Made by a program: the position numbers and the translations under genes. From assembly GCA_029560515.1 (NCBI GenBank), contig JAKQKT010000324.1, forward strand, positions 1 to 39,422: 39,422 nt of DNA, given 5' to 3'. Source of the DNA: Pseudomonadota bacterium. GTDB taxonomy: Bacteria > Pseudomonadota > Gammaproteobacteria > Xanthomonadales > Xanthomonadaceae. Below, piece after piece: positions 38,322-38,989 of the stretch (its first letter is position 1; the number at the start of each line of letters is the position of its first letter). The notes under the pieces are model-generated. The model made no database searches, was not told where the DNA came from, and saw only the letters and a program-made list of their open reading frames with translations.

Positions 38322-38412
38322 AGGTTTTCTTTTGGTTTTTATGAGGGAATTACAAGCTGATCATGCTACGGGTAAAAGAAAGAAAGTGTTGCGCGTAAAC
38401 CGGTGGGTTTCC

Positions 38413-38421
38413 TGTGGATAA
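38413..38421 (-). promoter_or_regulatory. Consensus DnaA box (TTATCCACA) upstream of dnaB
   Basis: tgtggataa on plus = TTATCCACA on minus, perfect E. coli consensus, ~92 bp upstream of the dnaB start codon. Confidence 0.55.
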
Positions 38422-38491
38422 GATCATAAACCCGTCTCAATCAATGAGACATCCACCGAGGCCGCAGGTGCGCCTGCTTGCTGCGCCCCTA

Positions 38492-38521
38492 CAAAAAAAG
38501 CCGCCTTTCGGCGGCTTTTCA
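38492..38521 (-). terminator. Intrinsic terminator of the rpsF-rpsR-rplI operon
   Basis: gccgcc-tttc-ggcggc with A/T extensions; T7 on the minus strand. Confidence 0.85.
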
Positions 38522-38539: not shown

Positions 38540-38989
38540 TTAAGCTTCTGGAGCCACGATAACCTTAACTTTGACTTCAACGTCGGCATGCAGATGCACG
38601 ACTACGTCGAATTCGCCGGTGCGACGGATTGCGCCTTCGCCCATGATGACTTCGGCTTTTTCCAGCTTGTGGCCAGCTTTCGTGAAGGCTTCCGCGATAT
38701 CGCGGGCGCCGACTGAGCCGAACAACTTGCCTTCGGTCGATGCATTCGCATTGATGGTCACGGTGGCACCTTCAAGTGCGGCTTTGCGTGCTTCGGCAGC
38801 AGCCAGTGTTGCATTGGCTTTTGCTTCGTATTCGGCGCGCTTGGCTTCGAATGTGGCGATGTTGGCGGCATTGGCAGGAACTGCCTTGCCGGTCGGGATC
38901 AGGAAGTTGCGGCCGTAGCCCGGCTTCACGTCGACTTGATCGCCGAGACCACCGAGGTTGGTCACTTTTTGCAGGAGGATCAATTGCAT
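38540..38989 (-). CDS. rplI: 50S ribosomal protein L9
   Basis: '[39 protein letters not shown]'. Confidence 0.98.

Follow-up and report, generated by a model that had tools for sequence, protein, structure and literature searches.

In Caulobacter crescentus, DnaA boxes are located upstream of dnaB and the gene was assigned to the DnaA regulon (Hottes 2005, as related in PMC8203912), and in M. tuberculosis DnaA binds upstream of dnaB (PMC7738170), which is induced by mitomycin C, partly via PafBC (PMC8151990). In vivo, as revealed by ChIP-seq, DnaA of E. coli occupies pairs of boxes spaced by 2 or 3 bp, and the insertion of a base pair between the purH boxes greatly reduced its binding (PMC11317965). 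The rplI-dnaB spacer of an Arenimonas-like bacterium, considered here, likewise has a putative DnaA site ahead of dnaB, as do C. crescentus and M. tuberculosis from other lineages. The likeness drawn here is one of location, and Lysobacterales add to it a conservation across the order and an adjoining candidate damage operator.

The window, i.e. the whole stretch of 39,422 nucleotides that was analysed, comes from a fragmented assembly of 486 contigs representing an Arenimonas-like MAG (Lysobacterales); Arenimonas species were its nearest named relatives by DnaB (82 and 81% identity). The minus strand carries, in this order, rplI, an apparent intrinsic terminator, the promoter region and dnaB (Table 1), the rplI-dnaB spacer being 218 bp long. 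The terminator is readable in the sequence, though it was absent from the output of the terminator/promoter scan. It should be added that in several genomes of the same genus (G008, G010, G012, G014, G015, G018, G020 and G024) the DnaB match was interrupted around residue 230, the reading frame being approximately 900-1080 codons long, so that dnaB looks as if it contained an intein.

Table 1. Features of the rplI-dnaB region, in coordinates of the window
Feature	Position	Strand	Basis
dnaB, replicative DNA helicase, 462 aa	36933..38321	-	ORF; Pfam DnaB N- and C-terminal domains
TAGCAT, predicted -10 for dnaB	38363..38368	-	comparative placement
TTACGCGCA, weak inner 9-mer with AC next to it, 3 bp beyond the middle 9-mer	38390..38398	-	comparison
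Degenerate middle 9-mer AAACCCACC, 2 bp after the box	38402..38410	-	register inferred by comparison
TTATCCACA, perfect DnaA box in the outer register	38413..38421	-	exact match; conserved in relatives
Palindrome GTCTCA-N5-TGAGAC (GTCTCATTGATTGAGAC), member of the GTCKCRN5YGMGAC operator	38434..38450	.	comparison
Apparent intrinsic terminator of rplI, GCCGCC-GAAA-GGCGGC then T7	38493..38519	-	read from sequence
rplI, ribosomal protein L9, gene upstream of dnaB	38540..38989	-	ORF and translation

The original prediction had pointed at the 9-mer tgtggataa in this spacer as a perfect DnaA box, and it was found exactly where it had been placed. On the dnaB coding strand it reads TTATCCACA, within the consensus TTWTNCACA, 100 bp ahead of the ATG. 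One copy was observed in the window against 0.19 expected from dinucleotide shuffles, corresponding pro rata to approximately 0.001 for the 218-bp spacer. Across the whole genome, the 9-mer was no more frequent than the reversed control pattern (12 copies of each), and the case for the box therefore rests on its position and not on its number. The DnaA protein of this genome has the signature AGRDHTTVLHACR, and TTATCCACA also occurs in the dnaA-dnaN spacer and dnaA leader, so the 9-mer is expected to be read by the organism's own DnaA. At G000:C182:2234-2256, beside a gene whose product was read as PriA, two further copies of TTATCCACA lie in opposite orientation with 5 bp between them.

Phylogenetic footprinting was performed with 263 distinct dnaB upstream regions (80 named loci together with genus, family and order samples), with rplI as the far border of the spacer and a first-order Markov model as the null for both box and palindrome; the sampled genomes are related, and all counts below are non-independent observations. 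TTWTNCACA was present in 100 of 124 Lysobacteraceae spacers (0.8% expected), 76 of them with the perfect TTATCCACA, and in 13 of 17 Rhodanobacteraceae spacers (1.3% expected), 12 of them perfect, with orientation ratios of 99:1 and 13:0, respectively. Among other lineages (Pseudomonas, Woeseiaceae, betaproteobacteria and others) only 2 of 71 spacers had a match, against 1.5% expected. Of the Lysobacteraceae without a strict match, most showed a close variant in the corresponding context (ATATCCACAG, TTGTCCACAG, TTACCCACAG). The commonest natural variants, TTATCCACA, TTATGCACA, TTTTCCACA and TTATACACA, all fall inside TTWTNCACA; base counts of the inner-register box varied mainly at positions 1 (T/A), 3 (A/T/G) and 5 (C/G/A), a pattern close to the DnaA consensus. 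The box is thus kept in place, in orientation and, as detailed below, in distance to the -10 across two families, and the suggestion that a DnaA box is positioned for control of dnaB is borne out at the level of sequence.

Three base pairs beyond the box, most loci have another 9-mer in head-to-tail order, TT[AG]T[CG][TC]GCA, which continues with AC; a TA[CG]GAT-like hexamer comes approximately 20 bp later. In this second box, TTGTCTGCA, 3 of 9 positions disagree with the DnaA consensus, and the conserved box usually appears to pair with it as a DnaA double box, the two being separated by 3 bp. The combined pattern TTATCCACAGNNTTRTSYGCAAC had one match each in 27 of 120 Lysobacteraceae genomes, always shortly upstream of dnaB and nowhere else in these genomes. 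Double boxes of E. coli (nrdA, polA, purH and others; Stringer 2024, PMC11317965) are similar in having two head-to-tail 9-mers spaced by 2-3 bp, one strong and one weak, with a replication-related gene downstream. However, dnaB is missing from the E. coli double-box targets listed there, and the array of Lysobacterales differs in being fixed to the -10 and in having a third register, one turn outward, that can carry the strong box.

A consensus sigma-70 scan returned no dnaB promoter and no recognisable -35, and the -10 was derived from comparison. To this end, a matrix was built from loci with a clear box, its box columns were blanked against circularity, and it was run on 184 loci, 161 of which could be placed. 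A box with at least 8 of 9 matches was found at -42/-43 from the -10 in 133 placed loci and at -53/-54 in 21, so that 154 of 161 had one of the two distances and none had both; other offsets were nearly empty, apart from -63 to -65 (22 cases). A separate distance count, made with a -10 finder biased toward distances near 43, agreed with this placement (135 loci at 42/43 and 22 at 53/54). The offsets are steps of about one helical turn, and the box-to--10 distance is fixed, while the distance to the dnaB ATG differs among loci. Furthermore, some Rhodanobacteraceae and Dyella spacers (L035, L259, L165, L166 and L176) contain a pair of strong DnaA boxes at a distance of exactly 21 bp, corresponding to two helical turns.

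The window belongs to the -53 class, its box lying 53 bp upstream of the predicted -10; the placement score was low (6.8), and this hexamer therefore stays a prediction. Its layout, TTATCCACA-GG-AAACCCACC-GGT-TTACGCGCA-AC...TAGCAT, comprises three registers with spacings of 2 and 3 bp. In most relatives the second box is 2-3 bp from the first; here, the 9-mer 2 bp away is the decayed AAACCCACC, whose register is where most relatives have their strong box, and the next one is the weak TTACGCGCA with AC, the counterpart of TT[AG]T[CG][TC]GCAAC. The canonical 3-bp pair is hence broken, with the middle box decayed and the inner one weak, and by the spacing rule known from E. coli purH (PMC11317965) this array may bind DnaA more weakly than those of the relatives.

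The gtctca and tgagac segments beside the box had been interpreted as one arm of a three-way junction. They rather appear to form a DNA operator, GTCKCR-N5-YGMGAC, which occurs at many repair genes. With up to one mismatch, the palindrome was present at dnaB in 93 of 124 Lysobacteraceae (3.2% under the null), in all 17 Rhodanobacteraceae and in 1 of 71 regions elsewhere. Its location is variable upstream of the boxes or, in Rhodanobacteraceae, between the boxes and the -10. With the same tolerance it was found upstream of recA in 28 of 30 genomes (1.6% null), taken independently of the site sample, and the asymmetric form GTCGCAN5TGAGAC was matched 57 times across 49 genomes, the control twice. 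Genes downstream of the sampled sites, which are a sample and not a census, encoded DEAD/DEAH helicases taken for mrfA-like (13) and included uvrA (6), dnaB (4), rmuC (3), PA0069 radical SAM (3), recA (2) and LexA-family genes (2). Names of the clustered downstream proteins rest partly on reading their sequences; for one partial mrfA-like helicase, TIGR03817 was the best NCBIfam match, below the cut-off. The strict form GTCTCAN5TGAGAC showed no evident gene set in Arenimonas; it was the GTCKC/GMGAC form together with downstream clustering that revealed one. In most of these repair-gene promoters of relatives, a hexamer starting with TA follows the palindrome after approximately N9-11, and no canonical TAnnnT was present at this distance from the dnaB palindrome of the window. 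It should also be added that the window's genome has a further palindrome, GTCGCAGGCTTTGCGAC (G000:C472:1200-1216), between ssb-like and PA0069 radical SAM-like genes, with TAGCTT at N10 upstream of the latter.

Taken from relatives and from this one site of the own genome, these data point to a candidate DNA-damage regulon of Lysobacterales, which would include recA and be distinct from that of the LexA1 box, and the palindrome in the window is probably the site of a separate, LexA1-independent damage regulator. The Xanthomonadales LexA1 box TTAGTArwawTACTAA (PMC2248561) likewise is a palindrome serving a DNA-damage gene of the order as operator, but its sequence differs and GTCTCATTGATTGAGAC does not match it. 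In relatives it sits at the starts of lexA1, and it was not found in the 220 bp that precede recA and contain the GTCKC palindrome. A LexA2-type protein is one candidate reader, the palindrome being present at two lexA2-type genes and, with one mismatch, at four Arenimonas lexA2 genes. Another candidate regulator is a PafBC-like HTH-WYL-WCX protein (G000:C481, L439:1072-2040, plus strand), the sole WYL-domain match in the window's genome, whose closest solved structure is mycobacterial PafBC; a scan upstream of WYL genes, several of them unreliable gene calls, gave no convincing palindrome. Promoters of Caulobacter DriD (PMC12340889) and mycobacterial PafBC RecA-NDp (PMC5656591, PMC11804915) resemble most palindrome promoters of the relatives in having a -35-region site that keeps a constant distance to a weak -10, and in lying upstream of recA and other repair genes. 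Yet their sequences, ATACGAC-N7-GTCGTAT and TTGTCRGTG-N8-TAnnnT, are unlike GTCKCRN5YGMGAC, and the dnaB palindrome of Lysobacteraceae is located further upstream. The window's genome, of approximately 98% estimated completeness, had no RecA (PF00154) or LexA (PF01726) match, presumably due to assembly gaps.

In our reading, a tandem array of up to three DnaA 9-mers, 2-3 bp apart and just upstream of the dnaB core promoter, would be occupied cooperatively by DnaA and would thereby adjust transcription of the replicative helicase gene, with the strong box of the window acting from the same DNA face but displaced upstream by one helical turn; dnaB would thus receive two inputs, from the DnaA array and from the damage regulator of the palindrome. 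We consider this control by a conserved array, with its separate damage input, to be probable on the comparative sequence evidence. As for its direction, boxes at approximately -55 to -35 and the lack of a good -35 make activation the likeliest mode, and the one we would, on balance, expect; strong boxes standing one full helical turn apart, with hardly any between, favour contact with RNA polymerase over a steric block. Repression might set in at high DnaA-ATP, once the -35-proximal box fills. That the array is chiefly a repressor site, at which DnaA-ATP would block the polymerase in a negative feedback on helicase supply, agrees with the overlap of the inner box with the -35 region and with the ability of DnaA to activate or repress nrdAB depending on its level and bound nucleotide (PMC8203912), but the strong boxes precede the -35, with helical phasing of their distances, and a promoter without a -35 suits an activator, which leaves chief repression rather unlikely. 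Double boxes are also found in E. coli datA and DARS (PMC11317965), and the array might accordingly be a reservoir or reactivation site of DnaA merely located at dnaB; against this role without control of dnaB, which we hold to be highly improbable, stand the fixed distance to the -10 despite the variable distance to the ATG and the absence of the combined motif elsewhere in the genomes. It is improbable, too, that a protein other than DnaA reads the 9-mer pair: in favour of it are the poor fit of the second box to the DnaA consensus and the occurrence of the GCAAC-containing motif at dnaB alone, whereas several members would be usual for a DnaA regulon, but the first box fits this consensus, varying only where DnaA tolerates it (position 1 excepted), and the identical 9-mer stands in the own dnaA-dnaN spacer.

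A last alternative takes the box for a chance 9-mer within structured RNA or DNA, in the three-way junction of the original prediction. All complementary segments of this junction are present as described (cggtg 38401-38405, ggttt 38406-38410, aaacc 38428-38432, gtctca 38434-38439, tgagac 38445-38450 and caccg 38454-38458), but the fold built on them found no support. RNA folding of the spacer region was unexceptional (z -1.7 on the plus strand and -1.0 on the minus strand); it predicted the gtctca/tgagac hairpin on both strands and a cggtg/caccg stem in most structures, and none of these contained the ggttt/aaacc arm that would loop the box. Folding as DNA gave z-scores of -2.6 and -2.3, which speak for structure, with pairing that differs from the proposed one, and an Rfam search returned no match at the gathering score. 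Covariation was checked for the gtctca/tgagac arm alone: at the fourth-position pair of 145 dnaB palindromes with up to one mismatch, T-A occurred in 63, G-A in 44, G-C in 20 and T-C in 18, so that the pair was broken in 62. The half-sites vary independently and without compensatory pairing, which argues against a stem and for the operator of a dimeric protein, and the palindrome's position relative to the box differs among relatives. RNA or cruciform structure was therefore rejected, and in view of the conservation of the box a chance occurrence within such a structure is extremely improbable.

The DnaA array and the palindrome may be linked more closely. It is possible, though short of probable, that dnaB is the junction of the helically phased DnaA array and a LexA1-independent damage regulon, perhaps under a PafBC/DriD-like WYL activator, with sites of the form GTCKCRN5YGMGAC, N9-11, TAnnnT at recA, uvrA, the mrfA-like helicase, rmuC, lexA2-type, PA0069 radical SAM and dnaB genes. 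In 31 loci the palindrome stands 26 bp before the box, and the -10 position of the damage promoter coincides with TATCCA of the DnaA box; under this arrangement DnaA and the damage regulator would therefore compete.

No paper on DnaA regulation of dnaB in Lysobacterales and no description of a recA-containing GTCKCRN5YGMGAC damage regulon were found in the literature searched, largely without subscription journals. Control of dnaB by DnaA is a known principle, for which Lysobacterales would be a new lineage; new are the helical phasing of the array, its conservation throughout the order and the candidate damage operator beside it. In that literature, direct control of the helicase gene by the initiator was described in Caulobacter, and binding of DnaA in Mycobacterium as well. 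With such a conserved array in a gammaproteobacterial order, the link between initiator and helicase gene would become more general and could be tested by ordinary reporters, and the adjoining operator points to an order-level DNA-damage regulon including recA. Together, array and operator suggest that these bacteria couple the supply of helicase to replication initiation as well as to DNA damage.
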